The translations under genes were made by a program, and so were the position numbers. This document shows, piece after piece, positions 6,616 to 46,735 of a stretch of 50,681 bases of DNA. Numbering within the stretch: the stretch's first letter is position 1; each line of letters opens with the position of its first letter. Source of the stretch: Ruminococcus sp. GTDB lineage: Bacteria; Bacillota; Clostridia; Oscillospirales; Ruminococcaceae. The DNA is taken from contig JAFXCR010000019.1 in NCBI GenBank assembly GCA_017516465.1, positions 1 to 50,681 of the forward strand, written 5' to 3'. The notes below the pieces were generated by a model. That model worked only from the letters and a program-made list of their open reading frames with translations, was not told the origin of the DNA and did no database searches.

Positions 6616-6636
6616 ATTGTCGTTTCAACGATAATT

Positions 6637-8753: not shown

Positions 8754-8766
8754 AGGAGACGATACT

Positions 8767-10506: not shown

Positions 10507-10522
10507 GGCGGTGGTTCCCCTT

Positions 10523-11668: not shown

Positions 11669-11712
11669 AAAACTCCGGAAAATTCAGAGACATCGTAAAT
11701 CGGAATAAATAA

Positions 11713-11750
11713 AAGTGGACGCCTTGCAAGTGAAGGAGTCCACTTATTTT
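11713..11750. terminator. Bidirectional terminator between convergent operons
   Basis: AAGTGGAC (11713-11720) pairs with GTCCACTT (11738-11745), extended by an inner CCTT/AAGG stem, with T-rich runs on both strands. It closes the first transporter operon and the convergent pgsA/DtxR-like operon. Confidence 0.85.
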
Positions 11751-12129: not shown

Positions 12130-12164
12130 TAGTATCACCCTTTCATCTTGAGCGTAATACGGAA

Positions 12165-14077: not shown

Positions 14078-14079
14078 TT

Positions 14080-14700
14080 TCAGACCTCCAAAAAATATTC
14101 CTTTATGCAGCGGTTGATCTCATCGAAGCTGTAGCCGTACCGCACAAGAGCCGCTTTTACCTTCTCGATTTCTCTGCGGTCGTCGGGATCAGTAAGTCTG
14201 CGTGCGTACTTTGTTTCCAGAAGTTGCATGAGATTTTCCTCAAATTCCTCCGAATGGGGTTCAAGAGCGTCAACAGCAGTATGCTGACCGATACCCTTCA
14301 TGCGTATTTCACGCAAAGCACGTCTGTAACCGAATTTTCTGCCGGAAACATATCTGACAGCAAGCTTTTCGGCATATCGTTCATCGTCGATAATACCGTT
14401 TTCCTCCAGTTTATCGGCAACAGCAGCACAGAGACTTTCGCTTTTGTAATTGTCAAGCAGCTTTTTGTACATTTCCTCACGAGAGTAATCCCGATAATCA
14501 AGGAGATAGAGGGCACGCTGATATGCACGCCGGAAATTCGATGCTCTGATTATCTCACGAAGTCTTTCACGGTCAATTTCATCGTCCTCTCTGAGTCCGA
14601 AATCAACGATTATATCTGCATGAAGATAAATTTTACGTTCATGGTCAAGCTCCGCTTCAAAAGTGGAGCCTTTGTATTTTTTCAGCGAAGTAACTTTCAT
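14080..14700 (-). CDS. recX: RecX, RecA modulator
   Basis: A 206-residue regulator that restrains RecA filaments. The three-helix RecX repeats are readable: RRAYQRALYLLDYRDYSREEM, followed by a KLEENGIIDDERYAEKLA segment and RRALREIRMKGIG, which is the family signature. The start codon overlaps the recA stop by one base, and the recA-recX pairing is itself strong evidence. The N-terminal 50 residues form a beta-rich extension common in Firmicutes RecX. Length is within the usual 150-270 range. Confidence 0.93.
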   Translation of the reverse strand: MKVTSLKKYKGSTFEAELDHERKIYLHADIIVDFGLREDDEIDRERLREIIRASNFRRAYQRALYLLDYRDYSREEMYKKLLDNYKSESLCAAVADKLEENGIIDDERYAEKLAVRYVSGRKFGYRRALREIRMKGIGQHTAVDALEPHSEEFEENLMQLLETKYARRLTDPDDRREIEKVKAALVRYGYSFDEINRCIKEYFLEV

Positions 14701-15887
14701 TATTCATCCACAGGAGTGAATTCCTCGAAGTCATCCTCTATATCGGCAAGGATATCATCACTGATTCTGTCGTCCATATAGTCATCAGAGTCCTGAGCAG
14801 CAGTGCCAGCATCTTTTTTGTCTTTTTTTGTCTTTTTAGACTGGTCTTCTTTTAGCTCATCCTTGCGTGCAATGATCTGCTCCTCGATTTCCTTCATGAG
14901 AGCCTCATCGTTCTTGAGGATTTCCTTTACATTGTCACGTCCCTGACCGAGCTTCTGGTCCTTATAGCTGAACCAAGAGCCGCCCTTCTTGATGATATCG
15001 AGCTGAACGGCAAGATCAAGAACTTCACCTGTACGGGAAATTCCTGTGCCATACATCATATCAAATGTACATTCCTTGAACGGAGGAGCAACCTTGTTCT
15101 TTACGACCTTACACTTAGTAGCCGCACCGATAATGTCGCTTCCGGACTTGATTACCTCGCCCTTTCTTACCTCAATACGGACGGATGAATAGAATTTCAG
15201 TGCACGTCCGCCGGGAGTTGTTTCGGGATTTCCGTACATAACGCCGATCTTTTCACGAACCTGATTGATGAAGATAGCAACGCAGTTCGATCTTGAAATA
15301 GCGGCAGTAAGCTTTCTCATAGCCTGAGACATAAGTCTTGCAAGTTGTCCTACATGAAGATCGCCCATTTCACCGTCGATTTCCGCACGGGTAGTCATAG
15401 CGGCGATAGAGTCGATTACGATAACATCAATAGCACCAGAACGGATGAGAGCTTCTGCAATTTCAAGAGCCTGTTCACCGCTGTCGGGTTGTGATACAAG
15501 AAGATTGTCTATATCAACACCGAGAGCCTTTGCATATACGGGATCAAGAGCGTGTTCAACATCAATGAAAGCAGCTTCGCCGTCAAGCTTCTGAGCCTGA
15601 GCAACAATGGAAAGAGCAACGGTTGTCTTACCTGAGCTTTCAGGACCGTATATCTCAACGATTCTTCCTCTCGGAACGCCGCCTACACCCAGAGCCATAT
15701 CAAGCGTCATAGAGCCGGTAGGAATAGTCTCGACGTTGAGTGTGGTGTTCTGACCGAGACGCATGATAGCACCCTCGCCGTATTTCTTGGATATTTGTTT
15801 CATAGCTCCTTCAAGAGCTGTTTTCTTATCCTCCTTGGTGGTAACACGGACCACTTCTGGTTTTTTTGCAAGTTCCTTCTTTGCCAT
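14700..15887 (-). CDS. recA: Recombinase RecA
   Basis: A 395-residue DNA recombinase for homologous repair and SOS induction. Walker A GPESSGKT lies at 81-88, Walker [11 protein letters not shown] near 155, and the L1/L2 regions include [13 protein letters not shown]. The C-terminus is an extended acidic/lysine-rich tail (about 340-395), longer than in Bacillus. AGGAGGA, located inside the last codons of prmC, serves as ribosome binding site. recA lies within a long operon, and I see no SOS box of the GAAC-N4-GTTC type just upstream, so any LexA control would act farther away or through an internal promoter I did not find. Confidence 0.98.
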
Positions 15888-15889
15888 TT

Positions 15890-16750
15890 TTATTCCTCCT
15901 CTTGATGTTTTCTTCCGGCGGCAGTACGGATTATCCTTCCGCCGTCAATTCTGAGTTCAATATCGGTAAATGAATTATTTTCAAGTATTTCTTTTACAGC
16001 GTTATGTTGTCCCATGCCGAATTCATAGGCAAGCCAGCCGCCCGTTTTCAGTGAATCCTTCCACAGAGCTGTCATTCTCCGGTAGAAGTCAAGACCATCT
16101 GTACCGCCATACAGAGCCTTTTCCGGCTCATAGGAAACCTCAGTCTGCAGCGACTGCATTTCCTCGCCTGTGAGATACGGCGGATTGCTCACAATGATAT
16201 CAAGACCGCTGAACCTTCTGCTGAAATTTTCGTCAAGCACATCGCCCGGAATTATCTCTATATCTGCGTTATTGACAGACACATTCTGCCGCAGATATAC
16301 AAGTGCTTCATCAGACAACTCAACGGCATATACCTTTGCATCGGGGATATGCTTTTTCAGAGCAATGGCGATACATCCGCTGCCGCTGCAAAGATCGGCT
16401 ATTGCAGGAGATTCAAAGTTATTTTTCCTGCATATATCAAGAATCTGCTCCACAAGAGTTTCCGTGTCGGGACGAGGAATAAGCACGCCCTCTCCGACCT
16501 TTATCGGATAGCCGAAGAATTCCCACTGACCGAGCAGATACTGGAGAGGATAGCCGGAGCAGCGTTTTACTGTAAGCTCACGGATCTTCTTTTCAGCGGA
16601 TTCTTCTACCAGTTTGGACGGCAGAAAAAGCGGATGCGTTTCGTTCAGCATATCCTGAAAAATACACAGAGCATCAAACCTTGCATCTGGATTTCCGCTG
16701 TTTTCAAGAGCTTTTATGCATTCCTCAAAGAGAACAGAGCGGCTTACCAC
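15890..16750 (-). CDS. prmC: Release factor glutamine methyltransferase PrmC
   Basis: A 286-residue SAM-dependent methyltransferase that modifies the GGQ glutamine of RF1/RF2. The helical N-terminal domain (about 1-80) is followed by SAM motif I ([15 protein letters not shown], near 118) and the catalytic NPPY in [14 protein letters not shown] (near 188). It overlaps the DUF1385 gene by 7 bases and is followed directly by recA. The DUF1385-prmC neighbourhood is conserved in many Firmicutes, usually with prfA; prfA is not in this window. Confidence 0.95.
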
Positions 16751-17673
16751 TTGTCCTCCTCCTTATCCTCGGGAATACACGGTTTAAGAGCCGCAATTGC
16801 AATTTCTATCATGCTGTCGTCGGGTTCACGGGTCGTAAGACGCTGCATTGCAAGTCCGGGAGCAGAAAGGATTCTTGTAAAAAGATTATCCCTGTTTCCT
16901 GCAAGACGTATGAATTCATAGGAAATTCCTACCACAAGCGGAAGAAGTACAAGGCTTATGAGCATTCTTATCCACTTGTTCATGGAGGGAACAAAACACA
17001 TTACGAGTATGCTTACGATAAGTACAATAAAAATAAAGCTTGTTCCGCATCGCTTGTGGAAGCGTGTCTGCTTGCGGACGTTTTCCACGGTCAGCGGAAG
17101 CTCGGCTTCATGGCAGGCTATCGTTTTATGTTCAGCGCCGTGATACATATACTGACGCTTTATATCCTTCATAAGACCGACAATTGCCATGTATGCTATG
17201 AAAATAGCTATTTTGAGGATTCCCTCAGCGACTGAACGGAGAATACGCTCATCTCTCACCACAGGAATGAAATCGGCAATCCATTTGGGAAGGAAAATAA
17301 AAAGTCCTACTGCAAGAGCAACTCCCAAAACCATGCCTATTCCCATGATTACGTTGATAACACCGGAAGAAAGATTTTCTTCTTCCTTTTCTTCGTCGGT
17401 AAGCTGTTTTTCTGCGGATTTCATCATATATTTATAGCCCTTGACAAGCGATGTCACGAAGCTTACGCAGCCCCTCACCAAAGGAGTTTTCTTGTACCAC
17501 GGAGCTTTTTTGCCGTTGTTTTCCTCCCATGTTTCAAGATCAATTGTGCCGTCCGGAAGTCTGCACGCCATGGCTCCCGTAGTGGGACCAAGCATCATGA
17601 TTCCTTCGATAAGTGCCTGACCGCCGATCTTTGATTTGAATTTTTCGCCGGATGGCTTGTTTTTGTTACTCAT
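16744..17673 (-). CDS. DUF1385 membrane protein (YqhQ family)
   Basis: A 309-residue membrane protein. The ATG at 17673 is chosen because AAGGTGAT lies 6 bases before it; the longer frame to 17709 has no ribosome binding site. The family core is clear: GGQALIEGIMMLGP at the N-terminus and YHGAEHKTIACHEA in the middle, with hydrophobic segments around 100-130, 145-170, 205-235 and 235-260. The family has no established biochemical function, but it is conserved next to prmC in Firmicutes. Position 54 bases after the histidine kinase stop suggests cotranscription with the two-component genes. Confidence 0.9.
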   Translation of the reverse strand: MSNKNKPSGEKFKSKIGGQALIEGIMMLGPTTGAMACRLPDGTIDLETWEENNGKKAPWYKKTPLVRGCVSFVTSLVKGYKYMMKSAEKQLTDEEKEEENLSSGVINVIMGIGMVLGVALAVGLFIFLPKWIADFIPVVRDERILRSVAEGILKIAIFIAYMAIVGLMKDIKRQYMYHGAEHKTIACHEAELPLTVENVRKQTRFHKRCGTSFIFIVLIVSILVMCFVPSMNKWIRMLISLVLLPLVVGISYEFIRLAGNRDNLFTRILSAPGLAMQRLTTREPDDSMIEIAIAALKPCIPEDKEEDKW

Positions 17674-17727
17674 AATTATCACCTTAAAGGCGGCAGATTC
17701 CTGCCGCATGATTTGTTATGTATATTC

Positions 17728-19134
17728 TTAAGATGTTTTTGCCGGAAGTACGATTGTAACGGTTGTTCCGAGACCTTCGCCGGCACTGGTGATATCCATA
17801 GTTCCCTTGTGCATAGCGATTATCTCATCTGCAACAGCAAGACCGATTCCGGAGCCTCTCCTTGTATGATTTGCCTTGAAGAATTTTGTTTTTACCTTTG
17901 CAAGATCAGCAGGTTTTATTCCGCATCCTGTATCGGTAACTGATACGACAACCTTTTTTTCTTTTTCGTCCTCATAGGCGTTTATTGTGACTGTTCCGCC
18001 GCTGGAGGAGTATTTGATTGCGTTGTCGATTATATTGATAAATACCTGACGTATTCTGTTCTTGTCGCCGAATACGAATGGAAGCATATCAGGCTCGTTG
18101 TAGATTATTCCGATTCCCTCACGCTTTGCTTTGTCACTGTAAATAAGAACAGCGTCGCCAAGCTCTGCGAGTATATCCATGTTTGCGTTCTGGAGCGTGA
18201 AGTGACCACTCTGCATTCTTGAGAAGTCAAGCAGTTCTTCAACCATCTGCGAAAGTCGTTCTGTTTCGTTGACTATAACGCTGACACCCTTTTTCATGGT
18301 ATCCGGACTGCCGCCGTCAATCATGAGTGTTTCTGCCCAGCCCTTTATGGCAGTCAGGGGAGTACGCAGCTCGTGCGAGACGGAAGAAATGAATTCATTC
18401 TTCATGTTTTCGGCATTTGAAAGCTCGTCAGCCATGTGGTTGATGGCAGTGCATAGCTCACCGATTTCGTCGCTGCTGTTGCTGCTGATACGCACCGAGA
18501 AGTCGCCCATCGCAAATTTTCTGGCAATTCCGCTTATCTGACGTATAGGCTTTACGATAGAGCCAGCGAAATAAAGTCCGGTAGAAATTACGATAGCGAT
18601 GATTACAAGCACGACAATTGCTACTGCAATAGTGTAATTCTTTATGGCATTGTCGATTTCCGTCAGTGATGTTACCATTCTCACGGAGCTGTATTCGCTG
18701 TTCATTGAAGAAATAGGAACTGATACTGCCAGTATCTTTTCACCGCCGGGCATTTTTCCTATGTATGTACCCTCGCCGGATTCCATAGCTTCTTCGTAAT
18801 CGGGCATAAGGAGATCTGCATCCGGAGAGAAGCCTGAGGATGTCAGAACTACTCGTCCTTTGGAGTTGATTGCCATAAGTTCAATCTTGTCCTTTTCGTT
18901 GAAGGTTTCCAGCATATTTCTCATTTCTGTCGAGAAATTTGCAGCACTGTCCTGCGAATGGATGCTCAGAACACTTGTAACGGCGTTGATCTTCGAGATC
19001 AGGTATTGCTTTGCTGAGCTGTAAAAATATGTCTGTATAGCGTAGATGATAGCCATAGCAATTACAAGCAGAGCAAGGATGATTACACCGAGATTGTTGA
19101 TAATCCAACGTTTTGTGATACTTTTTTTAGCCAT
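17728..19134 (-). CDS. Sensor histidine kinase (HAMP-HisKA-HATPase)
   Basis: A 468-residue membrane sensor kinase. Two membrane spans (about 12-34 and 167-190) enclose an extracellular sensor region of about 130 residues that looks like a PAS/Cache-type fold (AINSKGRVVLTSSGF). Then come a HAMP domain (about 191-243), a HisKA domain with the phosphoacceptor His254 in SSVSHELRTPL, and an HATPase domain with N box (INIIDNAIKYSS), G1 (DTGCGI) and G2 (GSGIGLAVADEI). Its start overlaps the response regulator stop by one base. The signal is unknown; the lipoprotein gene at the head of the run might contribute to sensing. Confidence 0.93.
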   Translation of the reverse strand: MAKKSITKRWIINNLGVIILALLVIAMAIIYAIQTYFYSSAKQYLISKINAVTSVLSIHSQDSAANFSTEMRNMLETFNEKDKIELMAINSKGRVVLTSSGFSPDADLLMPDYEEAMESGEGTYIGKMPGGEKILAVSVPISSMNSEYSSVRMVTSLTEIDNAIKNYTIAVAIVVLVIIAIVISTGLYFAGSIVKPIRQISGIARKFAMGDFSVRISSNSSDEIGELCTAINHMADELSNAENMKNEFISSVSHELRTPLTAIKGWAETLMIDGGSPDTMKKGVSVIVNETERLSQMVEELLDFSRMQSGHFTLQNANMDILAELGDAVLIYSDKAKREGIGIIYNEPDMLPFVFGDKNRIRQVFINIIDNAIKYSSSGGTVTINAYEDEKEKKVVVSVTDTGCGIKPADLAKVKTKFFKANHTRRGSGIGLAVADEIIAMHKGTMDITSAGEGLGTTVTIVLPAKTS

Positions 19135-24213: not shown

Positions 24214-24954
24214 ATGGAAAAGGTTCTCGAAGTCAAGGGACTTACGAAACAGTACTCAAAGGTTCTTGCTGCCGACAATGTATCGTTCGATATAGGTGAA
24301 GGAGAAATATTCGCTCTTATCGGACCTAACGGCGCAGGAAAAACAACAACTATCCGCATGATATCCACCCTTCTCACTCCTACATCCGGAGACGCTCTGG
24401 TTATGGGGAACAGTATTATCAGTGCACCGGAAAAAGTAAGGGAAAATATCACATATCTTCCCGATGAGGCAGGTGCCTACAAGAACATGAAGGGTATAAA
24501 GTATCTTCAGTTCATGGCAGGACTTTTCAGCTCTGATCTGGAAGAAATCAAGAAATGTGTTGAGCGTGCCAAGGAAATCTGTCAGCTCGGAGATCGTCTT
24601 AACGACAAGATCGGCAGTTACAGCCGTGGAATGATAAGAAAGCTTCTGCTTGCCCGTGCCGTTATGACAAAGCCGAAGCTTGCAATCCTCGATGAGCCTA
24701 CCAGCGGTCTTGACGTTATCAATGCTATTGAAATCAGAAAGACTATCAAACGTCTTGCCAAGGAGGAGGGAATGTCCTTCCTGCTTTCATCGCATAATAT
24801 GCTGGAAATAGAATTCGTTTCCGACCGTGTGGGAATCATAACAAAGGGACACCTTATGGTGACAGGTGAGGCAGACGAGCTCAAGCAGCGGTACAATGCC
24901 GCTAATCTTGAGGAAGTATTTGAAAGGGTGGTGAAGCAGAATGAAGTTCATTAA
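24214..24954 (+). CDS. ABC-2 type exporter ATPase (NatA-like)
   Basis: A 246-residue ATP-binding subunit. Walker A GPNGAGKT (about 41-48), a divergent signature YSRGMIRKLLLA, Walker B LAILDEPTSGLD, and the switch His in SSHNML are all visible. The ATG at 24214 is chosen because the N-terminus MEKVLEVKGLTKQYSKV is the usual family start and GGGGGT lies upstream. It overlaps the permease gene by 14 bases. The CcmA/NatA class exports sodium, antibiotics or lipids; the substrate here is unknown. It is not a MalK/MsmK type, so it is an unlikely motor for the sugar-type permeases elsewhere in the window. Confidence 0.93.
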   Translation: MEKVLEVKGLTKQYSKVLAADNVSFDIGEGEIFALIGPNGAGKTTTIRMISTLLTPTSGDALVMGNSIISAPEKVRENITYLPDEAGAYKNMKGIKYLQFMAGLFSSDLEEIKKCVERAKEICQLGDRLNDKIGSYSRGMIRKLLLARAVMTKPKLAILDEPTSGLDVINAIEIRKTIKRLAKEEGMSFLLSSHNMLEIEFVSDRVGIITKGHLMVTGEADELKQRYNAANLEEVFERVVKQNEVH

Positions 24955-35316: not shown

Positions 35317-38223
35317 ATGAAAATAAGATCAGCGATGATATGCCTGATGACGGTGTGGCTTGCCCTATGGGGTACAGTTCCGGCTTTTGCTGAGGAAATA
35401 TACACACCATCGGAACAAACGCTTCAGGCTATGGAGGAAGATTATTACAGAATAGAACCGGTCGATCCGGAGCTTCTTTCGTACAGCAGCTACTATGATC
35501 TGTACTGCAATGAAGGACATCCGCAAACCGGAATAAAACTGGAAGCCGGAGATTTCTCTTCGCCGGACGGCTCGGCTGTTATCGTCAGCCATTCTGCGGA
35601 GAGCATCACGAAAAATACTCTTGTCTGGGAAGAAAGCGGAGGCAGAGCTTCTGCGGAAATTGATGTTCCGGAAACAGGAATATACTGTCTGAGATTTGAT
35701 TACTGCCCGCTTGCCCAGACAAGCCAGACTATTGAAATTTCTCTTGAAATAGACGGTAAACTGCCGTTTGAACAGGCTTCAAGGCTTACACTCGGCAGAG
35801 TCTGGGTTGATGAAAAGGGAATATATGATAATTTCAGAGGAAATCAGATACGCTCTCCGCAGGTACAGCAGGAAAGCTACAAAAGTGTGCTTGCGGGAGA
35901 TCCGGACGGTCTGTTCGGTGAGCCACTTATATTCTTCCTTGAAAAGGGAAAGCATGAGATATCTGTGTCCTCCGGTGCAGGGCAGCTTGCACTTGCGTCA
36001 CTGAGCTTTGAGACTTCTCCGGAAATCCCTTCATACGAGGAGTATAAAGCTTCGGTGAAATCTTCGGTTACTCCGGAGACAACTCCCTCACGTCTTTTCA
36101 GGATAGAGGGCGAAAGTGCTGCGGTAAAATCTGATGCAACGCTGTGTGCAAATTTCGATAACACAAATTACCTCGTTTCTCCGTCAGATCCCTCAAGAAT
36201 CGTTTACAATACCTTCGGAGGAAGCGGCTGGGGAAAGCCTCTCCAGACCGTTACATGGAACATCTCAAAAGAAGATGTGGGAAACGACGGCTGGTACAGA
36301 ATAGGAATAAAATACAGACAAAATTTCCAGCGTGGATTTGTCTCCAACAGGCGTATATATATCGACGGCAGAGTGATCTGTGGGGAAATGAATCAGGTGC
36401 GTTTCAGCTACGACAGCGACTGGTCGGTTGCTTCGCCGGATATCCTTGTTTACCTTGATTCAGGCTCGGCTCATACGCTGACTATGGAGGTCGTTCCGGG
36501 AGAAACCGGAGAATACCTGCGTCGTCTGGAGGAGGTTCTTGCGGAAATAAACGTGCAGTACCGGAAAATCCTCATGATTACCGGACCTGCCCCCGATAAA
36601 TATACCGATTATTATGTGCATGAAAAGATTCCTGATCTTACAGAACGTCTGAAGGAACTTTCCGCAGAGCTTAAGGATATTCAGGATGATATGGAAAAGC
36701 TTGGCGGTTCCTACGGTTCAGAGGCGGCTGTACTTGAAAATACAGCGGTAATACTTGATAAATGCGTGAAAAAGCCGATTGAGATACCTTCGTATCTTGC
36801 CAGAATAAAGGACAGTATAACTTCTCTTTCTGCATGGATGAGAGAATGTCGTGAACAGCCGCTTGAAATCGACTACATTGAATTTGCATCCGCTGACAGG
36901 AAGTTCACAAGCTGTGAAAAGAAAATAATAAAATCGGCAGAATTCAGCTTTAAGGCATTTATTTCGTCGTTCTTTCAGGATTATACCACACTTTCAGATA
37001 TTACTGGAGAGAGTGCAATTGAAGTCTGGGTTGCTCTCGGACGTGATCAGGCAGAAATTGTGCGTGAGATGACGGAAAGCCAGTTCATTCCGGAATATGG
37101 AATTCCTGTTTCCGTCAATCTTGTGAATGGCGGTATTGTAGAAGCTGCCCTTGCAGGAAAGGCTCCGGATGCGGCACTTTTTCTTGGCGGTGAATTTCCG
37201 GTGAATCTTGCGTCAAGAGGTCTGCTGACCGATTTTTCGCAGTACGATGATTTCAGTGATGTGTCGCAGAAATTTGGTGAAAGTGCTATGGTGCAGTATT
37301 CGTGGGATGGCGGATGCTATGGCATACCCATAAGCCGGTCATTCCCGATGATGTTCTACCGGACGGATATTCTTTCCGAGCTTGGATACGATCATCCGCC
37401 GGAAACATGGGACGAGCTCATGGAAATTCTTCCGGCGATACAGCGGAATTACATGAACGCAGGACTTGTGCTTCCGCCGAATAATATATCTCCGGCAACA
37501 GAAGCCGGTCATACCTTTGCAATGCTTATGCTTCAGAATGGTTGTGGCTACTATAACGATGATCTTACAGCTACGTCCTTTGATTCTGTTGAGGCATACA
37601 GGTGCTTTGAGCAGTGGACAGATTTTTACACAAAGTACAGCTTTGAGCAGTCATACGATGCGTTCAGCCGTTTCAGGACAGGCGAATATCCCATAGTTAT
37701 AGCAAATTACACATTCTTCAATCAGCTTGAAGCGGCTTCGCCTGAAATAAGGGGCTTATGGAACTTCTGTCAGGTGCCGGGAACGCTCAGGGCGGACGGA
37801 ACTATATCTCATGCCGTTAATTCAAGCGGTTCGGGAGCAGTTGTGTTCAGCAGTGCGGAAAATCAGGATGGTGCATGGGAATTTGTGAAATGGTTCACCA
37901 GCACTGAGGTCCAGACGGAACTCGGTATGCGTCTTGAAGGACTCAACGGCGTAATGGGACGTTTTGATACAGCTGATCCTCAGGCACTCCGTCAGCTTTC
38001 GTGGTCTGAGGAGGAGCTTTCACGACTTATGGATCAGTACGAGGAGCTTGAGGAAATACCTGTAACTCCGTCGTCTTATGCCGTTACAAGAAATATCATG
38101 AACGCCTTCCGTGAAGTTGTGAACGGCGGCGAAAATCCCCGTGATACGCTTTTGTGGTACAACAGGGATATCAATGACGAAATAGAACGAAAAAATGAAG
38201 TAATGAACAAGAGAGGTGGATAA
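35317..38223 (+). CDS. Large secreted solute-binding protein with N-terminal carbohydrate-binding-like and coiled-coil regions
   Basis: A 968-residue exported protein. The signal peptide ends in an AFA-type cleavage site near residue 25 and has no lipobox Cys, unlike typical Gram-positive binding proteins. About 75-240 and 255-405 look like two beta-sandwich, CBM6/35-like domains (GGRASAEIDVPETGIYCLRFDY-type strands). About 410-500 is a helical, coiled-coil-prone region. About 560-950 is a family 1 extracellular solute-binding domain (EVWVALGRDQAEIV, the FYRTDILSELGYDHPPETWDEL hallmark, and WEFVKWFTS). How it stays at the cell without a lipid anchor is unclear; the N-terminal domains may hold it to wall polysaccharide or a partner protein. 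First gene of the cluster, followed by two permeases. Confidence 0.85.
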   Translation: MKIRSAMICLMTVWLALWGTVPAFAEEIYTPSEQTLQAMEEDYYRIEPVDPELLSYSSYYDLYCNEGHPQTGIKLEAGDFSSPDGSAVIVSHSAESITKNTLVWEESGGRASAEIDVPETGIYCLRFDYCPLAQTSQTIEISLEIDGKLPFEQASRLTLGRVWVDEKGIYDNFRGNQIRSPQVQQESYKSVLAGDPDGLFGEPLIFFLEKGKHEISVSSGAGQLALASLSFETSPEIPSYEEYKASVKSSVTPETTPSRLFRIEGESAAVKSDATLCANFDNTNYLVSPSDPSRIVYNTFGGSGWGKPLQTVTWNISKEDVGNDGWYRIGIKYRQNFQRGFVSNRRIYIDGRVICGEMNQVRFSYDSDWSVASPDILVYLDSGSAHTLTMEVVPGETGEYLRRLEEVLAEINVQYRKILMITGPAPDKYTDYYVHEKIPDLTERLKELSAELKDIQDDMEKLGGSYGSEAAVLENTAVILDKCVKKPIEIPSYLARIKDSITSLSAWMRECREQPLEIDYIEFASADRKFTSCEKKIIKSAEFSFKAFISSFFQDYTTLSDITGESAIEVWVALGRDQAEIVREMTESQFIPEYGIPVSVNLVNGGIVEAALAGKAPDAALFLGGEFPVNLASRGLLTDFSQYDDFSDVSQKFGESAMVQYSWDGGCYGIPISRSFPMMFYRTDILSELGYDHPPETWDELMEILPAIQRNYMNAGLVLPPNNISPATEAGHTFAMLMLQNGCGYYNDDLTATSFDSVEAYRCFEQWTDFYTKYSFEQSYDAFSRFRTGEYPIVIANYTFFNQLEAASPEIRGLWNFCQVPGTLRADGTISHAVNSSGSGAVVFSSAENQDGAWEFVKWFTSTEVQTELGMRLEGLNGVMGRFDTADPQALRQLSWSEEELSRLMDQYEELEEIPVTPSSYAVTRNIMNAFREVVNGGENPRDTLLWYNRDINDEIERKNEVMNKRGG

Positions 38224-38226
38224 GCT

Positions 38227-39138
38227 ATGAAAAAGAAGGCAGGATTGAAACGGACCTTCCGTGAGATACGGAAAAATAAAGCCTGCTATGCCATGCTTGC
38301 CCCCTTTATGATTCTGTTTATACTGTTTACGGTGATTCCGGTAGTGATGTCGCTGCCGATAGGCTTCACTGATTTCGACATGGTGCAGAAGCCGGAATTC
38401 GTGGGACTTTCCAACTTCCGGACGCTGTTTCTTTCCGATAAAGTATTCATCAGCTCGATAAGGGTAACAATAGTATTTGCACTTCTGACAGGTCCGGTGA
38501 GTTATGTGCTGTGCTTTCTTCTTGCATGGTTTATCGACGGAATGCCAAAACGTCTGAAAACCTTTTTCACGCTGATATTCTACATTCCTTCGCTTGCGTC
38601 AGTGTATACTGTGTGGCAGCTTATATTCAGCGGCGATATGAACGGTTATCTTAATGCCTTTCTCATTGACCTCGGAATAATCAACTCGCCTGTTCAGTGG
38701 CTTACGGATGGCAGATATGTGCTTGCTGTAACGATAATCGTACAGCTGTGGATATCTCTCGGAGCCGGTTTTCTTGCGATAAGAGCCGGATTTCAGAATA
38801 TTGATCCGGCACTTTACGAGGCGGGAGCTATCGAGGGAATACGCAGCAGGTGGCAGGAGCTTATCTACATCGTGATACCATCAATGGTACCGCAGCTGCT
38901 GTTTGCGGCAGTAATGCAGATAGTAGGATCATTTACAGCCGGAACTGTCGCACAGAATCTTGTAGGATTCCCAAGTACGGAAAACAAGGCACATACGATA
39001 ATGACTCACGCTTACGATTACGGCTGGGTGAGATTTGAAATGGGATATGCTTCTGCGATATGTATGATACTTTTCGTTGTGATGTTTGTACTCAACAGAC
39101 TTATTTCAAAGGGATTAAGAAAAATACAGGGTGACTGA
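38227..39138 (+). CDS. Sugar-type ABC transporter permease (MalF/UgpA-like), first pair
   Basis: A 303-residue permease with six predicted spans. The EAA loop reads LYEAGAIEGIRSRWQELIYIVIP near residues 197-219. It starts 3 bases after the binding-protein stop, behind AGAGGTGG, which indicates coupling to it. With the next gene it forms a heteromeric importer-type pair. The substrate is unknown; no ATPase gene is present in the cluster. Confidence 0.92.
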   Translation: MKKKAGLKRTFREIRKNKACYAMLAPFMILFILFTVIPVVMSLPIGFTDFDMVQKPEFVGLSNFRTLFLSDKVFISSIRVTIVFALLTGPVSYVLCFLLAWFIDGMPKRLKTFFTLIFYIPSLASVYTVWQLIFSGDMNGYLNAFLIDLGIINSPVQWLTDGRYVLAVTIIVQLWISLGAGFLAIRAGFQNIDPALYEAGAIEGIRSRWQELIYIVIPSMVPQLLFAAVMQIVGSFTAGTVAQNLVGFPSTENKAHTIMTHAYDYGWVRFEMGYASAICMILFVVMFVLNRLISKGLRKIQGD

Positions 39139-39165
39139 TATCCCTGAAGAACGGAGGTGCGGCAG

Positions 39166-40041
39166 ATGGCTGCGGATATAAAGAAGCTCAGGGCGTCAAG
39201 CGGTCCGGCTGGAAGAAAATACGGCGGAACAGCAGCTTCATTTTTGCTTCTGACCGCACTTGGTCTTTTCATGGTGTTTCCGATATATCTGACCGTTGTA
39301 ATGGCGATAAAGCCGGTGGAGGAGCTTTTTGTCTTTCCGCCGAAACTCTATGCTGTACGACCGACGCTTGATAACTTCCGTGATATGTTTGCTGCCGTGA
39401 GACAGAACAGAGTTCCGTTTTCAAGATATGTGTTCAACAGCGTATTCGTGACGGTATCTGTAACGGCTGCTCAGTGCGTATTTGCATCAATGGCGGCATT
39501 TGTTCTTGCGAAATGCCGCTTTCCCGGATGCCGCATTATCAACGGCGTTATCGTGACATCGCTCCTTTACCAGAGCAGCGTAATATACATCATGCAGTAT
39601 ATGGTAATGACAAAGCTCAATATAATAGACAGTCCTCTGGCACTTATTCTTCCGGCGGCGGCGTCGCCTATGGGAGTATTCCTCATGCGGCAGTCTATTA
39701 GTCAGATTCCAGACGCTATGCTTGACGCCGCAAAGGTGGACGGTGCAGGATTATTCCGTATATGCTGGCAGATAGTTATTCCCAATCAGAAATCGGCACT
39801 CATGACGCTGATGATATTTGCTTTTCAGGCGGCATGGAATATTCAGGGCGGAGGAGTTATTTTCCGTGAGCAGTTTAAAACACTTCCGGCGGCAGTAGCA
39901 CAGGTTTCATCGTCGGGAATGGCAAGAGCCGGAGTTGCTATGGCGGCATCTGTTTTCATGCTTGTTCCGCCGGTGATAGTATTTATCCTTGCACAGAAAT
40001 ACGTTATCCAGACCATGGCTCACTCAGGAATAAAAGAATAG
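39166..40041 (+). CDS. Sugar-type ABC transporter permease (MalG/UgpE-like), first pair
   Basis: A 291-residue MalG-type permease. The ATG at 39166 has GGAGG 8 bases upstream; the GTG at 39157 overlaps that site. The N-terminal first span is about 20-45, and the EAA loop reads MLDAAKVDGAGLFRICWQIVIP near residues 185-206. It pairs with the preceding permease. The next gene starts 28 bases later. Confidence 0.92.
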   Translation: MAADIKKLRASSGPAGRKYGGTAASFLLLTALGLFMVFPIYLTVVMAIKPVEELFVFPPKLYAVRPTLDNFRDMFAAVRQNRVPFSRYVFNSVFVTVSVTAAQCVFASMAAFVLAKCRFPGCRIINGVIVTSLLYQSSVIYIMQYMVMTKLNIIDSPLALILPAAASPMGVFLMRQSISQIPDAMLDAAKVDGAGLFRICWQIVIPNQKSALMTLMIFAFQAAWNIQGGGVIFREQFKTLPAAVAQVSSSGMARAGVAMAASVFMLVPPVIVFILAQKYVIQTMAHSGIKE

Positions 40042-40069
40042 GATTCATAGATAGAACGTTGGTGAATGA

Positions 40070-42145
40070 ATGAAAAAAGCGATTATTTCCGTAATGATGA
40101 TATGGCTGATTCTTGCTGGTGCGGTATGTCCTGTTTCTGCATGGGCAGCCGAAGCTTATGAATCATACAGCTACGACAGCCGCGGAAATGCTGTTCCGTC
40201 GCAGGCTGGATATACTGCTGTAAAAAGCGTTTCAGGCAGTGATATCGGTACAGAAAGTTTTGATTCCCCGTCGGATATCTTTTTATCCGGAGACGGGATG
40301 TTCTATATCGCTGATACCGGAAATGACCGTGTAATCGTTGTTGACAGCAATTTTGAAGGCGTCTGCGGAATCTATGAAAGCTTCATTCTTTCCGATGGAA
40401 GCAAAACAAATCTCAGCGAACCGACCGGCATATTTGTCTCCGCAGAGAGGGATATGATGTATATTGCTGACAGCGGAAATTCGAGAGTTCTGGTGTGCAG
40501 TACGGACGGACAGGTGAAAATGGAAATAACAAAGCCGGATTCTCCTGTATACGACAGCAATAAAACATTCATCCCACGAAAGGTTATCGCAGACAAGGCT
40601 GGAAATATCTACGTTCAGCTTGGAAATTTCACTACCGGAGCCGCAATGTTTTCTCCGGACGGCGAGTTTATGGGATTCTACGGCGCAAACCGTACTGAAC
40701 CGACAGCAGAGGTGGTTCTGAAATATATCAGAAATCTTTTTTCCTCTGAGGAAAAGCGTTCGCAGCGTACAAGAACAGTTCCCGCCGGAATCACAGGCTT
40801 TGACATTGACGGCGATTTTATTTTCACCTGTACATCTTCATCAACCCAGAAGCTTGATACGGTAAAGAAGCTCAACGCTGCCGGAAAGAATATCTTTGCC
40901 AACAAGGAAATGATTTTCGGAGATCTTACGCCGGTTTACAATGCCGTGCGAAATGAATTCCTTGCTCCGTCGATAATTGATATCGACGTTTCGGAGGAGG
41001 GCTTCATTAATTGTCTTGACCTTACAACAGGACGTGTATTTCAGTACGACGAGGATTGTGAGCTTATTTTCATTGCCGGAACAAAGGCGAGTCAGCTTGG
41101 CGGCTTCAAGGAGCCGGCGGCTGTGGAATCGGCTGAGGGAAAGCTTTATGTTCTTGATTCCGGTAAGAATACAATAACTGTTTTTGAGGAAACAGAATTC
41201 GGCAGAACGGTTCACAGTGCAGTAACTCTCTATAATGACGGCTATTATGAGGAGGCTCTTGAGCCGTGGTATGAGGTTCTGCGCCGTGACGGAAATTACC
41301 GCCGTGCATACGTCGGAGTGGCATCTGCACTTCTCAACAAGGGCGATTACAGCGGAGCAATGAAATATGCACGTCTCGGATACGCAACAGATATCTATAA
41401 TAAAGCTTTTGAAGGTTGGCGAGAGATATTTATCAGAGAGCATTTTGTGCATATCTGCGTGATAATAGCACTTCTGGTGATAGCATATATCTTCCGGCAA
41501 AGGCTTCTTTCAGCGGCAGGAAGAATAAAAGTTCGTATTTTCCGGACGGTGGGAAGGCTCCGGAAAAAATATGTCAGACGTAATTCCAGAACAAAAATAA
41601 CAAAGTATAAAGGGACAATCCTTATACTAATCATGATGTTTTTCGGACAGATAGCCGAAGGCAGATTATACGGATTTCAGTTTGGATATCCCGATGACAG
41701 GACGTTCAGTATTGTTCCGTATATCGTCAGAAGCTTCGTGATATTCGCTGCATGGGTGATAGGAAGCAGAGCTGTCAGCACCTTCCTTGACGGAAGCGGT
41801 ACAGCCGGAAGAATATGCGTCTCCAGTGCCCGTGCACTTGTACCGTATATAGTTCAGCTTTTTGTCTGTACGGGACTTTCACATATCCTCATTCAGGATG
41901 AGGTGGTATTCATCCAGATAATACGCATTGCCGGAATAGCAGTTACAGCGGTTATGCTGTTTATTGCCGTTAAGAATGTACATTGCTATTCAGTAGGAAG
42001 AACGGCATTTTCCGTTGTGCTGACGATAGCTGCAATGCTTATAATGCTGTTTCTGCTGGTTCTGTTTATGTCGCTTATACAGCAAATATGGCTGTTCATT
42101 TGCACGATCTGGACTGAGATAACATACCGCATAAGAATGGGATAA
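40070..42145 (+). CDS. NHL-repeat/TPR membrane protein with Yip1-like C-terminus
   Basis: A 691-residue protein. A signal peptide (about 1-27) is followed by about five NHL-type beta-propeller blades (GMFYIADTGNDRVIVVD, MMYIADSGNSRVLVC, GNIYVQLGNF and others), about 60-375. A TPR-like helical pair follows (YNDGYYEEALEPWYEVL, GDYSGAMKYARLGY), about 385-440. A membrane span lies about 459-477, then a basic linker, then a five-span region about 520-685 resembling Yip1-domain proteins. Thus a sensor-like extracellular propeller is tied to a membrane module. NHL propellers bind proteins or sugars. I infer an accessory or scaffold role for the adjacent transporter. Confidence 0.78.
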   Translation: MKKAIISVMMIWLILAGAVCPVSAWAAEAYESYSYDSRGNAVPSQAGYTAVKSVSGSDIGTESFDSPSDIFLSGDGMFYIADTGNDRVIVVDSNFEGVCGIYESFILSDGSKTNLSEPTGIFVSAERDMMYIADSGNSRVLVCSTDGQVKMEITKPDSPVYDSNKTFIPRKVIADKAGNIYVQLGNFTTGAAMFSPDGEFMGFYGANRTEPTAEVVLKYIRNLFSSEEKRSQRTRTVPAGITGFDIDGDFIFTCTSSSTQKLDTVKKLNAAGKNIFANKEMIFGDLTPVYNAVRNEFLAPSIIDIDVSEEGFINCLDLTTGRVFQYDEDCELIFIAGTKASQLGGFKEPAAVESAEGKLYVLDSGKNTITVFEETEFGRTVHSAVTLYNDGYYEEALEPWYEVLRRDGNYRRAYVGVASALLNKGDYSGAMKYARLGYATDIYNKAFEGWREIFIREHFVHICVIIALLVIAYIFRQRLLSAAGRIKVRIFRTVGRLRKKYVRRNSRTKITKYKGTILILIMMFFGQIAEGRLYGFQFGYPDDRTFSIVPYIVRSFVIFAAWVIGSRAVSTFLDGSGTAGRICVSSARALVPYIVQLFVCTGLSHILIQDEVVFIQIIRIAGIAVTAVMLFIAVKNVHCYSVGRTAFSVVLTIAAMLIMLFLLVLFMSLIQQIWLFICTIWTEITYRIRMG

Positions 42146-42170
42146 GCTATTACTTTTTCGGAGGGATTCT

Positions 42171-44894
42171 GTGATAATTGGAAAAATTCGGGCAGTTGTT
42201 TTGGGGTTAGTTACGGCATCCTCGCTGTGTATAGGAGGAAATATCTATGCCGGAGGACCGGTTATTCCAGCTGACGGGATTGAGTCGGGTGCTGATCAGG
42301 AGGAACGTGCAAAGCGTCGTGAGACAGTAGAAAAGCCTGATTTCGACAGTGTCCGCATGAAGGAGCTTTTTTCCTTTGCAGGAAGCTCTGGCGGACTTGA
42401 TATATACATCCGCAGCGATGATTCTCTCACGGAGGATGAACTTCGTGAAGCAAAGAAAATAGGCGGTGCTGCCGCTGTTTATTCTGATTCCGGAGAGCCT
42501 GCTGCTGTATTTGACGAGCTATCCGACAAGGACGGAACAATTACCTATATCAGCGAAAAGAAAAGGTATATTGCTGTTGTTTTGCCGGAGGGAGTCAACG
42601 TGAAATCGGTGATTTCCACTCTGGACGATGAGAATGTGTATCTTTCCGGCAATGGTGATACGCTTGAGCTGATGTCTGATGACAAAAAGAAAACCGAGGC
42701 AGTTTTTTATCGTGGAAGTGAAAAGAACGGTATGGTTACATACTCTGAGGAAGGCGGAGAACGCTTTGCGTGGGTATCTGCGGATATGAAGCAGTTTTAT
42801 GGTATTTACCGTTATGGTGCGGAAAACGAGCATTTCCGTATGCTTGTGGACGACCGCAATGCAGTTTTCGGTCTTGAAAACAAGGAGACAGGATATATCT
42901 GGTGGTCGTCGCCGCTCGGAGCAACGCATGACGATTCTGCGACAGATATTCTTGCGGAGGGACTGCGTTCATCGGTAATCCTGAATTACGGAATTCCCCA
43001 TAAGCGGAGTGATGGAAATACTCTGCGTTCCAATTCCAAAGACTGCCGCATGACTCTTACGGATACAGAAAACGGCGTGAGGGTGGTGTATGATTTTGAA
43101 TCAGCAGGATTTGAGTTCCCCGTTGAGTATACGCTGGAGGAGGATTATCTCCATGCAGTTCTGAGGGTATCGGACATTGAAGAAAGAAATTCTGAAAATA
43201 TAATAACTGAGGTAACTCTCATGGAGACCTTCGGGGCGGCATCCTCAGCGGAGGAGGGATATTTTGTTATTCCTGACGGAAGCGGTGCGCTTGTCCGCTT
43301 CAATAACGGCAGAACTTCGGAGCTTACTGCCTACAAACAGCCTGTATACGGCAGAGATATCACGGCTGTTCCGCAAGTAAGGGGAGCTTACACACAGCAG
43401 ATATATCTTCCAGTTTACGGCATTGTCAAGGGCGATAACGCTCTGCTTGCGGTGGCTGAGAAGGGCGATTCAAACGCATCAATATCAGCGAAGATATCGG
43501 GACAGTCCAATACAGATTATAATATGTGTTCATTCAGCTTTACGCTGAGGGAGACGGATACATATTATATGTCCGGAAGTGGAAGCAAGCAGCTTACTGT
43601 CTTTGAAAGCGGAAAAATAAAATCGGACGATATAGAAGTTCGGTATTATCCTGTATCGGCTGAAAATGCAGGATATGCCGATATAGCTTCACGTTACAGG
43701 GAATATCTCGTGGAAGAAAAGGGCGTGACTACAAAAGCAAAGGAAAATAGTGCACCGCTTTATATCGACTTTTACGGCGGAGTTCAGAAGAAACGCTCGA
43801 TACTTGGTATACCGATTACGATGAAGACAGCAGTGACTTCATACGAACAGGGCGAGGATATCCTCCGCAGCCTCGAAAGCGGCGGAGTCGATGAAATGGT
43901 GGTATCCTACAAAAACTGGACTAACGACGGCATAAAGAACAAGGTTGATACTGACGCAAAGCCTTCCGGAACACTGGGCGGCAAAAAGGATTTCAACAGT
44001 CTGACGGCTTACATGGAGGAAAGAGGAATTCTGTTCTATCCTGTTTCCGATAATGTAAATTTCATGAATGGCAATGGATATTATTCTTTCACGGATACGG
44101 CTGTGAGAGTTTCCGGCAGCTATTCGAGGATAGTAAGCTACGACCGTGCCTATGGTGTTCCCGACGGCAGACAGAAGAATATGTCGCTGCTTTCTCCGGG
44201 AAGCTACAAGGGACTTTTCAGCGAGCTTTCAGAGGGATATGATAAGGCTGGTCTGGAGGGAGTATCTCCGGGTGCTCTTACAACGGCACTGTACGGCGAC
44301 TACGGTAAAAACGGAGCTTCACGCTATGAGGCTATGAAGCAGCTTGTGAGTGGTTATGAAAAAATCTGCGGAACAATGAAAAACGGCATTATGGCAAACG
44401 GTGCAAATGCCTATGCTCTGCCTTATGTCAGCCATATAAAGAATGTTCCTGTGACATCAAGCCGTTTTGATATATTCGATGAGGATATCCCGTTCTATCA
44501 GATGGTAATACACGGATTGATCCCATATACGACCGAAGCTGTGAATGGTAGTCCTGATACGTCGGATATGCTTCTGTATGCGGCTGAAACGGGTAGCTGT
44601 CTCAGGTATGATATGATACACGAACAGCCGGGAATGCTTGAAGATACGGAATTCGATATTTATTACTACGCAGACAGCAGTGGCTGGACTGACGAAGCGG
44701 CAGAAGCGTTTGTGCTTCTGAAACCTGTTCTTGCAAAGGTCAGCGGAGAATTCATGACCGGAAGATCATCGGAAAAAAACGGCAGCAGAGTTTCGGTTGA
44801 GTACTCTGACGGTTCTGAGATAACAGTCGATTATAACGAACGCTGGATTGAATACGGCGGACGGAGAATATACATCGGCGGCGGGGAGGAATAA
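42171..44894 (+). CDS. Secreted DUF5696-type protein
   Basis: A 907-residue exported protein starting at GTG behind CGGAGGG; the signal peptide is about 1-28 (IGGNIYAGG). Residues about 200-530 are beta-rich (NAVFGLENKETGYIWWSSPLG, and YFVIPDGSGALVRFNNG, which I associate with DUF5696), and about 540-840 have alternating strands and helices that could be a glycosidase-like TIM barrel (PLYIDFYGGVQKKRSILGIP, then DEMVVSYKNWTNDGI). I cannot point to catalytic acids with confidence. I recall DUF5696 proteins beside sugar-type permeases, which fits here. It has no membrane span or wall anchor. Function is unknown; cleavage or binding of an extracellular polysaccharide is a reasonable guess. Confidence 0.7.
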   Translation: MIIGKIRAVVLGLVTASSLCIGGNIYAGGPVIPADGIESGADQEERAKRRETVEKPDFDSVRMKELFSFAGSSGGLDIYIRSDDSLTEDELREAKKIGGAAAVYSDSGEPAAVFDELSDKDGTITYISEKKRYIAVVLPEGVNVKSVISTLDDENVYLSGNGDTLELMSDDKKKTEAVFYRGSEKNGMVTYSEEGGERFAWVSADMKQFYGIYRYGAENEHFRMLVDDRNAVFGLENKETGYIWWSSPLGATHDDSATDILAEGLRSSVILNYGIPHKRSDGNTLRSNSKDCRMTLTDTENGVRVVYDFESAGFEFPVEYTLEEDYLHAVLRVSDIEERNSENIITEVTLMETFGAASSAEEGYFVIPDGSGALVRFNNGRTSELTAYKQPVYGRDITAVPQVRGAYTQQIYLPVYGIVKGDNALLAVAEKGDSNASISAKISGQSNTDYNMCSFSFTLRETDTYYMSGSGSKQLTVFESGKIKSDDIEVRYYPVSAENAGYADIASRYREYLVEEKGVTTKAKENSAPLYIDFYGGVQKKRSILGIPITMKTAVTSYEQGEDILRSLESGGVDEMVVSYKNWTNDGIKNKVDTDAKPSGTLGGKKDFNSLTAYMEERGILFYPVSDNVNFMNGNGYYSFTDTAVRVSGSYSRIVSYDRAYGVPDGRQKNMSLLSPGSYKGLFSELSEGYDKAGLEGVSPGALTTALYGDYGKNGASRYEAMKQLVSGYEKICGTMKNGIMANGANAYALPYVSHIKNVPVTSSRFDIFDEDIPFYQMVIHGLIPYTTEAVNGSPDTSDMLLYAAETGSCLRYDMIHEQPGMLEDTEFDIYYYADSSGWTDEAAEAFVLLKPVLAKVSGEFMTGRSSEKNGSRVSVEYSDGSEITVDYNERWIEYGGRRIYIGGGEE

Positions 44895-44900
44895 AACAGT

Positions 44901-45812
44901 ATGGACGGCAGTAAAAAAAGACGTCTGCTGACTTACGGCAGACGCAGACAGCTTTACGGTTGGGGCTTTATATCGCTATGGCTCATGGGAACTGTGATGT
45001 TTTTTCTGATTCCGCTTATTAAATCGCTGTGGTATTCGTTCCATACGGTGACTATCGAGCCGGGAAGAATCAAAACAGAGTGGAAGGGACTTGCAAAATA
45101 CACCTATGTTCTTGATGACGCAAAATTCACGGAAGCTCTTGGCAGCACAATCGCAGAGACTCTCTGGAAAACGCCGCTGATACTGATATTTTCTATGTTT
45201 ATTGCGGTTATACTCAATCAGAAATTCAGAGGCAGAGCACTGGCGAGAGCAGTATTCTTTCTGCCGGTAATAATCGTTACGGGACCGGTATTCAAGATAA
45301 TCAGCGGCGACATTGATTCGACCGGAAGCCGTACAGCAGAGCAGTTCTCCACGATGATGTCCACTGATCTTGTAGACGAACTGATGCAGTTCCTTGGAAT
45401 ATACGGTCTGAGCGACAAAATGAGCGTTATCATCGGCACTGTTGCGGATAATATTTTCGGTATCGTATGGAGCTCCGGTATACAGATAGTACTGTTTCTG
45501 GCAGCGATCCAGAATATCCCTCCGTCCGCAAGAGAAGCGGCAATGCTGGAGGGTGCGTCGGCATGGGAGTATTTCTGGAAAATTACATTCCCGTATCTCA
45601 GCCCGTTTATTCTGGCTAATCTGATATTCACGGTAATTGATTCCTTTACAAGTCCGATGAATGCAGTCATGGCGAGAATACTCCGCATGAAATCGGAGTT
45701 TCTTTACGGCGAAGCTTCAGCGATGGCATGGATATACTTTGCGATAATCCTTGCTATGATAGGAATTGTCTCGTGGATAGTGAATAAATTCATCTACTAT
45801 GAAAACGACTGA
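44901..45812 (+). CDS. Sugar-type ABC transporter permease (MalF/UgpA-like), second pair
   Basis: A 303-residue permease, 6 bases after the DUF5696 gene, with six predicted spans and EAA loop AREAAMLEGASAWEYFWKITFP near residues 212-233. Its periplasmic loop about 130-175 (DIDSTGSRTAEQFSTMMS) is longer than in the first pair. It forms a second heteromeric pair with the following gene. No second binding protein accompanies it, so both pairs may share the 968-residue protein or act on different steps. Confidence 0.92.
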   Translation: MDGSKKRRLLTYGRRRQLYGWGFISLWLMGTVMFFLIPLIKSLWYSFHTVTIEPGRIKTEWKGLAKYTYVLDDAKFTEALGSTIAETLWKTPLILIFSMFIAVILNQKFRGRALARAVFFLPVIIVTGPVFKIISGDIDSTGSRTAEQFSTMMSTDLVDELMQFLGIYGLSDKMSVIIGTVADNIFGIVWSSGIQIVLFLAAIQNIPPSAREAAMLEGASAWEYFWKITFPYLSPFILANLIFTVIDSFTSPMNAVMARILRMKSEFLYGEASAMAWIYFAIILAMIGIVSWIVNKFIYYEND

Positions 45813-45829
45813 TGAAAGAGAGGTGTATG

Positions 45830-46735
45830 ATGGCTAAAGGCAAAGAAAGAGTATGGAGCTTCTTACGGTTTGTGATACTTGCAGGAGTGGGATTTATTGT
45901 GATGTATCCTCTTATATATATGGTAAGCTGTGCTTTCAGAGAGCGTGCTGATATGAACGATCCGACAGTAATGTGGATCCCCCGTCATTACACCCTCGAT
46001 ATCATCAAGGAAACGTGGCGTGCAATGGAAATGGGAAAAACGCTGCGGACAACGCTGTTTCTTAATGTCGGATGCTCGTTTGTTCAGGTGATTTCCTGTG
46101 CCGTGACAGGATATGGCTTTGCAAGATTCAGTTTCAGAGGAAAGAAGCTTCTTTTCGGAATAGTTATCATGATGATACTTGTACCGCCGCAGCTGATATC
46201 GCTTCCTCTGTACACGCAGTTCAGATTTTTCGGAATAAAGGGCGTATTCTCGGTGAATCTCATTGACAGTATGCTCACGATGTATCTTCCGGCGATGACA
46301 GCTAACGGAATTCGTTCCGGACTGATGATACTCATTTTCCGTCAGTTTTTCAAGGGGCTTCCGAGAGAACTCGAAGATGCCGCCTGTATTGACGGATGCG
46401 GACCTCTCATGACTTTCATAAGGGTAATGGTACCGAATGCGGCGTCGGCGTTTCTGACGGTATTCCTGTTTTCAGTCGTGTGGTACTGGAATGATTATTA
46501 CGTCAGCACATCATTTTTCAAGAATACTCAGACTGTTTCGACGATGCTGTATGATCTTGACACGATACTCAGCCGTGCATTGTACGGCAGTGCGAATATC
46601 AAGGCGAGTGCAAGAGAACTTATCGTCTGGAGGGAAGCAGGCTGCCTGATGTCGATACTCCCTATATTAATAATGTATATATTCCTTCAGAAGCACTTCA
46701 CGGAAGGAATCGAGAGGTCAGGACTTGCGACATAA
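45830..46735 (+). CDS. Sugar-type ABC transporter permease (MalG/UgpE-like), second pair
   Basis: A 301-residue MalG-type permease. The frame opens at 45812, overlapping the upstream stop, but GAGAGG lies 6 bases before the ATG at 45830, which is preferred. The EAA loop reads LEDAACIDGCGPLMTFIRVMVP, about residues 184-205. Last gene of the cluster. No terminator is visible in the following 70 A/T-rich bases, so some transcripts may run into the S10 leader. Confidence 0.9.
   Translation: MAKGKERVWSFLRFVILAGVGFIVMYPLIYMVSCAFRERADMNDPTVMWIPRHYTLDIIKETWRAMEMGKTLRTTLFLNVGCSFVQVISCAVTGYGFARFSFRGKKLLFGIVIMMILVPPQLISLPLYTQFRFFGIKGVFSVNLIDSMLTMYLPAMTANGIRSGLMILIFRQFFKGLPRELEDAACIDGCGPLMTFIRVMVPNAASAFLTVFLFSVVWYWNDYYVSTSFFKNTQTVSTMLYDLDTILSRALYGSANIKASARELIVWREAGCLMSILPILIMYIFLQKHFTEGIERSGLAT

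Follow-up and report, generated by a model that had tools for sequence, protein, structure and literature searches.

Two CUT1-type permease pairs, a DUF5696 protein and a probably detached second binding protein in a conserved, probable uptake cassette of Ruminococcus sp.

Gene content of the locus

The window analysed here is a 50,681-nucleotide contig (C43 in our numbering) from the 2.0-Mb, 95% complete genome of a rumen bacterium, Ruminococcus sp.. At positions 35317-46735 it carries a cassette of seven open reading frames (ORFs), all on the plus strand and separated by intergenic gaps of only 3, 18, 28, 25, 6 and -1 bp (Table 1). These encode a solute-binding protein (SBP1), a MalF/MalG-type permease pair (F1 and G1), a membrane protein with NHL, TPR and Yip1-like parts, a protein with the DUF5696 domain, and a second permease pair (F2 and G2). 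An earlier reading, made from the sequence alone, had described a tightly packed cluster with this gene order, with proteins of 968 and 907 residues and with four permeases that keep the EAA loop. All of this is present, and a loose EAA-loop pattern is matched by F1, G1, F2 and G2 of the window (4/4), although the BPD_transp_1 score of F2 is under the Pfam curated cut-off (20.9 vs 26.4 bits). The gene content is that of an ATP-binding cassette (ABC) importer of the CUT1/MalFG type, since there is a MalF/MalG-like pair with EAA loop, a sugar-type solute-binding protein (SBP) and, in the genome, a gene for a MalK-type ATPase.

Table 1. Genes of the cassette in the window, with Pfam matches (E-values) and position of the EAA-like loop
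Gene	Position (strand)	Length	Pfam match	EAA-like loop
SBP1 (XloE-like)	35317..38223 (+)	968 aa	SBP_bac_8 5.6e-24, residues 609-869	
Permease F1 (MalF/UgpA-like)	38227..39138 (+)		BPD_transp_1 1e-9	residue 198
Permease G1 (MalG/UgpE-like)	39157..40041 (+)		BPD_transp_1 7.3e-8	residue 190
NHL/TPR/Yip1-like membrane protein	40070..42145 (+)	691 aa	NHL 1.1e-7; Yip1 2.4e-4 (under Pfam cut-off)	
DUF5696 protein	42171..44894 (+)	907 aa	DUF5696 1.8e-168	
Permease F2 (AxoF-like)	44901..45812 (+)		BPD_transp_1 3.2e-4	residue 212
Permease G2 (AxoG-like)	45812..46735 (+)		BPD_transp_1 1.4e-12	residue 189

Counterpart in Caldicellulosiruptor bescii

The combination had been put forward as a candidate for an undescribed system. 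It is not one. The identical gene order is printed for the heat-loving Caldicellulosiruptor (Anaerocellum) bescii as the operon xloEFG-X-GH129-axoFGE-xynF-xynE-xynD-xyn10A-xynX-xynB, which is assigned to xylan and upregulated on xylan (PMC8579813). A XynR operator, with binding of the regulator, has been reported for the xylan degradation locus (PMC12285236). The published operator has one exact match in one of our loci (L071, genome G179), 150 bp upstream of SBP1, and the cassette there is followed by a second binding protein gene (SBP2), GH43-CBM6, GH10, GH39, GH10, an esterase and GH39, where GH is a glycoside hydrolase family and CBM a carbohydrate-binding module. We identify L071 as the C. 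bescii locus from its exact operator and the order of its enzyme genes. Hence X corresponds, by family match and position, to the NHL/TPR/Yip1 protein and "GH129" to the DUF5696 protein. The C. bescii homologue of the NHL/TPR/Yip1 protein matches Yip1 at 1.4e-21.

The two loci share the seven genes and their order, and no ATPase gene is listed in the operon. They differ in what follows: AxoE and the xylanase/xylosidase genes come next in C. bescii, whereas neither a second SBP nor xylanase/xylosidase genes were found downstream of G2 in the window, the SBP2-family gene of this genome being on another contig. The proposal that the system handles an extracellular polymer gains support, in that the substrates are probably polymer-derived. 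A scan of the window for a XynR-like site with a loose pattern returned matches at chance level, and this candidate was dropped.

The literature searched contained no test of transport or ligand binding for these xlo/axo proteins; according to PMC12838199, the maltodextrin system was the sole system validated in that species before that paper. Under the name DUF5696 no paper was found, related text being present under GH129 alone. As far as this literature goes, new points are the dispersal of SBP2 in the family, the missing GH129 pair, the CBM-like N-terminal part of SBP1 and how widely the cassette is conserved. According to a review, Athe_0181 is a non-catalytic helper in the breakdown of mannan-rich biomass. 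By gene counting this protein is possibly AxoE, with an imperfect fit of the tag count.

Conservation of the cassette and its permeases

Conservation was followed in two sets of loci: 52 phylum-wide loci, fetched from 56 strong DUF5696 places, and the best 80 of more than 562 loci from Ruminococcus and close relatives (Ruminococcus-type loci), several of which are short. The full seven-part set is found in 96 of the 132 loci (32/52 phylum-wide and 64/80 Ruminococcus-type), some others being cut by contig ends, and the order SBP-F-G-NHL/Yip1-DUF5696-F-G recurs in loci of 15 families (counted by hand). The block NHL-DUF5696-F2-G2 stays together in 48/52 and 72/80 loci, respectively. The NHL/TPR/Yip1 protein, a single ORF in the window and two ORFs (NHL/TPR and Yip1) in many relatives, occurs in 51/52 and 76/80. 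From this recurrence, the seven-gene arrangement is not due to chance. The composite system proposed by the sequence-only reading is thus a conserved cassette, and the neighbourhood search that it had suggested for the DUF5696 and NHL/Yip1 proteins shows that the parts co-occur across phylum-wide loci. DUF5696 is above the Pfam cut-off in 39 of 398 phylum genomes and 95 of 247 family genomes, some matches being weak and partial. The closest named locus found is from a Ruminococcus sp. metagenome-assembled genome from sheep rectum, with a DUF5696 protein 91% identical.

The permeases were placed in a tree of 104 rows built from 24 loci and the window, with ORFs of 250-420 aa that reached at least 100 bits. 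The four positions correspond to four clades, with support of 100/100 for F1, 100/100 for F2, 100/99 for G1 and 100/98 for G2. Six further permeases of this genome fall outside the four clades, on long branches whose placement was called unsure by the tool.

A probable shared ATPase

No ATPase gene is present among the seven ORFs, as had been observed before. An ABC_tran match was not found inside 35317-46735, and the sole match in the window is at 24274-24705. A borrowed MsmK-like ATPase had been suggested, with the advice to look for a lone msmK/ugpC-type gene elsewhere in the genome, and this is likely. The genome has a single OB_MalK match, on a contig other than that of the window (C13:23588-24430), with no permease homologue found in the 10-kb stretch around it. 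Furthermore, deletion of msmK in C. bescii led to poorer growth on the carbohydrates tested (di-, oligo- and polysaccharides), and none of that species' CUT1 systems has an ATPase of its own, so that MsmK presumably serves them (PMC8579813); its use by each CUT1 system is an inference of that paper, not demonstrated system by system.

Among the 247 family genomes, 78 have DUF5696 at E<1e-50, and OB_MalK was detected in 74 of these 78, compared with 126 of the 169 others (genome tallies by hand). A common ATPase is already described for the C. bescii CUT1 systems, and the idea that an importer without ATPase is in itself special was dropped. The cassette resembles CUT1 importers with a common ATPase, such as those served by MsmK of C. 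bescii and MsmX of Bacillus subtilis, in its permease pairs with EAA-like loops, its SBP and the lone MalK-type ATPase gene. It differs from them in having two permease pairs and two accessory proteins conserved together.

The DUF5696 protein and its relation to GH129

A DUF5696 profile matches the GH129-like enzyme DagB (PDB 5opq) at 3.8e-10 and the GH129 enzyme NagBb (PDB 5wzn) at 3.9e-9. One of the two catalytic residues of NagBb is Asp435 (PMC5698469), the nucleophile. The families were aligned through a bridge, a NagBb relative in L231 (8.5e-256); 11 ORFs were taken as GH129 relatives, nine rows were aligned and two of these span both catalytic positions. The second residue, the acid/base, we take to be Glu478. 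At the Asp435 column the window has Gly, and Asp or Glu is found in 18 of 133 DUF5696 sequences. At the Glu478 column the window has Asn, and Glu is found in 18/133 and Asp in 78/133. One column beyond Asp435, 50/133 sequences have Asp or Glu and the window has Ala. Because just two of the nine GH129 rows span both positions, a register shift of one or two residues is possible. Judged from these profiles and this alignment, DUF5696 is a distant relative of GH129 and GH129-like enzymes that does not keep the GH129 catalytic pair at the aligned positions. The "GH129" label of these loci is likely an over-annotation, and alpha-N-acetylgalactosaminidase activity should not be assumed from it.

The DUF5696 protein could nevertheless be a working glycosidase, which would use residues different from the GH129 pair to trim side chains ahead of uptake. 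In that case the operon would comprise two ordinary importers and a hydrolase. This is what the annotation of C. bescii implies, with a GH129 gene listed in the operon and seven carbohydrate-active enzymes in the locus (Rodionov et al.). DagB is active with one of the two NagBb residues conserved (PMC5698469), and DUF5696 has conserved acidic positions of its own at D369, D396, E806 and D710. The residues at the Asp435 and Glu478 columns are the evidence against such an enzyme, and this evidence is weakened by the few GH129 rows and the acidic residues one column further on. On balance, we regard an active glycosidase as rather unlikely.

In the proteome of Paenibacillus O199, GH129 and CBM35 proteins were found on crystalline cellulose only (PMC4867992). 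This is compatible with the mechanism proposed below, provided that those GH129 and CBM35 proteins correspond to the cassette proteins. A close relative of NagBb, distinct from DUF5696, is encoded at L231:1173-3062 (-) in a genome of the same family.

A second binding protein encoded at other loci

Two permease pairs with one binder is what the sequence-only reading saw, and this is correct locally. It does not hold elsewhere, as a second binder is usually nearby in other lineages and at other loci in this family, so that the idea of one binding protein for two pairs, valid at the window locus only, was dropped. An SBP2 gene, from a cluster built by single linkage, lies near the cassette (within the fetched stretch, about 9 kb on each side) in 40 of the 52 phylum-wide loci. 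At the Ruminococcus-type loci the count is 0/80, where the profile at E<=1e-5 matched SBP1 only and some loci are short. The genome studied here has an SBP2-family lipoprotein on contig C18 with 156.6 bits, the next best SBP examined having 62.1.

The 247 family genomes were surveyed for SBP2 at E<=1e-20, with at most six candidates scored per genome. SBP2 was detected in 62 of the 78 DUF5696 genomes and 8 of the 169 others (Fisher p 5e-34, inflated by relatedness), and at least two SBP2 matches were found in 55 of 70 genomes, among the matches listed. Among these same matches, none was within about 39 kb of the DUF5696 gene on a shared contig, the contigs being many. In 20 regions around such orphan SBP2 genes, no homologue of the four cassette permeases was found among the ORFs chosen; the SBP2 ORF itself was displayed in 18 of the 20 and was absent from the chosen ORFs in two, so a permease could be missed likewise.

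Of the 57 clustered SBPs, 42 with >380 aa, in most cases a single one from each locus, entered a tree of 73 rows (midpoint root), along with orphans of >420 aa and >150 bits, at most two of them from locus L211. The 23 orphans form one clade (100/99), which joins L061 and the SBP2s of the C. bescii type (100/97) and nests inside a clade (100/98) holding 38 of the 42 cassette-flanking SBP2s. With this root, SBP1, the SBPs on contigs C53 and C52 of this genome and the other 4/42 cassette-flanking SBP2s fall outside. As the simplest history, this tree suggests a departure of SBP2 from the operon in a family ancestor, followed by multiplication.

Alternatively, the second permease pair of Ruminococcaceae may have lost its binder and be decaying or using SBP1, while the orphan SBP2 proteins serve other permeases or act as sensors. 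The empty Ruminococcus-type loci and the orphan regions fit such a loss, and the EAA loop of F2 is the least regular of the four, the loose pattern being matched by F1 in 25/25, G1 in 20/25, G2 in 21/24 and F2 in just 17/24. However, F2 is kept in 77/80 and G2 in 75/80 Ruminococcus-type loci, the window copies match the EAA pattern, and SBP2 and DUF5696 co-occur across genomes. A lost binder therefore appears improbable to us. In having several binding proteins per permease, the proposed arrangement would resemble the importer with AliA and AliB, which are encoded apart from the permease genes, although the Ali system takes up peptides and belongs to another importer class.

Tandem SBP2-like ORFs, some of them fragments, are seen at several loci: eight in L211 (G407; 4947-17983) and, downstream of G2, six in L038 and five in L043. 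At L201 (6759-8177), L202, L203 and L204, which come from four genomes of the genus, an orphan SBP2 lies between the same neighbours, a metF-like gene upstream and an NAD-epimerase-like gene downstream, both named by eye. Genome G416 has a second orphan SBP2 elsewhere (L205). Further possible orphan binders are L177, L178 and L179 on contigs C15 and C6 of the Ruminococcus genome studied here. These three ORFs, each about 740-760 aa long, match SBP_bac_1 and begin like lipoproteins. Glycosidase neighbours of orphan SBP2 genes were considered as a substrate clue and dropped, as their contexts, judged by eye from ORF starts, gave no consistent clue.

Architecture of SBP1

SBP1 had been compared with the usual single lipoprotein binder of this importer family. 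Inspected by eye, it shows a signal peptide and no lipobox. A coiled-coil-like stretch and a C-terminal solute-binding domain (about residues 570-890) are present. The N-terminal part probably contains two CBM35/6-like domains, placed by eye from the alignment at about residues 75-235 and 265-410. In the SBP1 family this part matches Golvesin_C in 12/15, CBM_35 in 9/15 (best 1.4e-7) and CBM_6 in 3/15 sequences (E<=0.5), while the N-terminal half of the window protein itself has no Golvesin_C, CBM_35 or CBM_6 match (Pfam, E<=0.5). An N-terminal profile searched against the PDB matches residues 434-520 of a glucanotransferase at 1.1e-9, a segment that we take to be a CBM35, and also designed coiled coils.

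The CBM-like domains, together with the almost constant presence of an NHL/TPR/Yip1 protein, could point to a machine mainly for surface attachment, sensing or export that is made of importer parts. We regard this as very unlikely, since the CUT1 parts are accompanied by binding proteins and one lineage has the cassette in an operon for xylan utilisation.

Proposed mechanism and its standing

To our knowledge, the uptake of complex oligosaccharides by fibre-degrading Gram-positive gut bacteria is poorly worked out. We consider it fairly likely that the cassette encodes a paired ABC importer of the CUT1 type, with detached binders and with oligosaccharides from plant cell walls as substrates. 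SBP1 would hold glycan chains through its CBM35/6-like domains and feed the first permease pair, while a separately encoded SBP2 lipoprotein, the counterpart of AxoE, would feed the second pair F2-G2. The genome's single MsmK-like ATPase would energise both pairs. The DUF5696 protein probably descends from a GH129-like enzyme and binds glycans without catalysis, and the NHL/TPR/Yip1 protein is a probable membrane anchor or coupler of the modules. The substrates in Ruminococcus would presumably derive from plant cell walls.

Several observations weigh against this importer model. None of the cassette's neighbours in the window was recognised as a glycosidase gene. OB_MalK was not detected in 4 of the 78 DUF5696 genomes, G431 (70% complete), G446 (75%), G590 (93%) and G633 (99%), so that two of them are 93-99% complete. 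With the E<=1e-20 threshold, SBP2 is missing from 16/78 DUF5696 genomes, and the reverse case, SBP2 but no DUF5696, is seen in 8 genomes. The pairing of orphan SBP2 with F2/G2 is inferred from ancestry and from a co-occurrence inflated by shared descent. The G2 clade has as its sister a permease from outside the cassette, Y_C53 of this genome, with unsure placement, and the EAA pattern is less regular in F2, as described above. Finally, in 19/52 phylum-wide loci one or more of SBP1, F1 and G1 could not be located in the vicinity, in part because of contig ends. In nine genomes taken from those lineages SBP1 was found in 9/9, and therefore the cassette halves are separable, though present in the same genomes.

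The paired importer may be extended, tentatively and with considerable doubt, to a docking hub in Ruminococcaceae. Here both CUT1 permeases would sit in one physical assembly held by the NHL/TPR/Yip1 protein and a pseudo-glycosidase DUF5696; SBP1 would serve the first permease, and a changing set of orphan SBP2 proteins, from single or tandem genes, would plug different plant glycans into the second, with one ATPase for both.

The cassette is widespread, and its Ruminococcus variant predicts that orphan lipoproteins, unlinked to any transporter by gene context, feed one conserved permease. DUF5696 would then be a marker for this uptake route.

Other genes of the window

The neighbours of the cassette are a helix-turn-helix gene and ribosomal-protein genes, the latter downstream of G2 and recognised from sequence. 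A promoter/terminator reading of the region was dropped, as the counts were at shuffle level. The stretch 6925-11668 carries a further MalF/MalG-like pair with, directly after it, an HlyD-like protein of 579 aa and a MacB_PCD protein of 385 aa; no SBP was among the ORFs scanned alongside. This makes the region an odd mix of importer and exporter genes.

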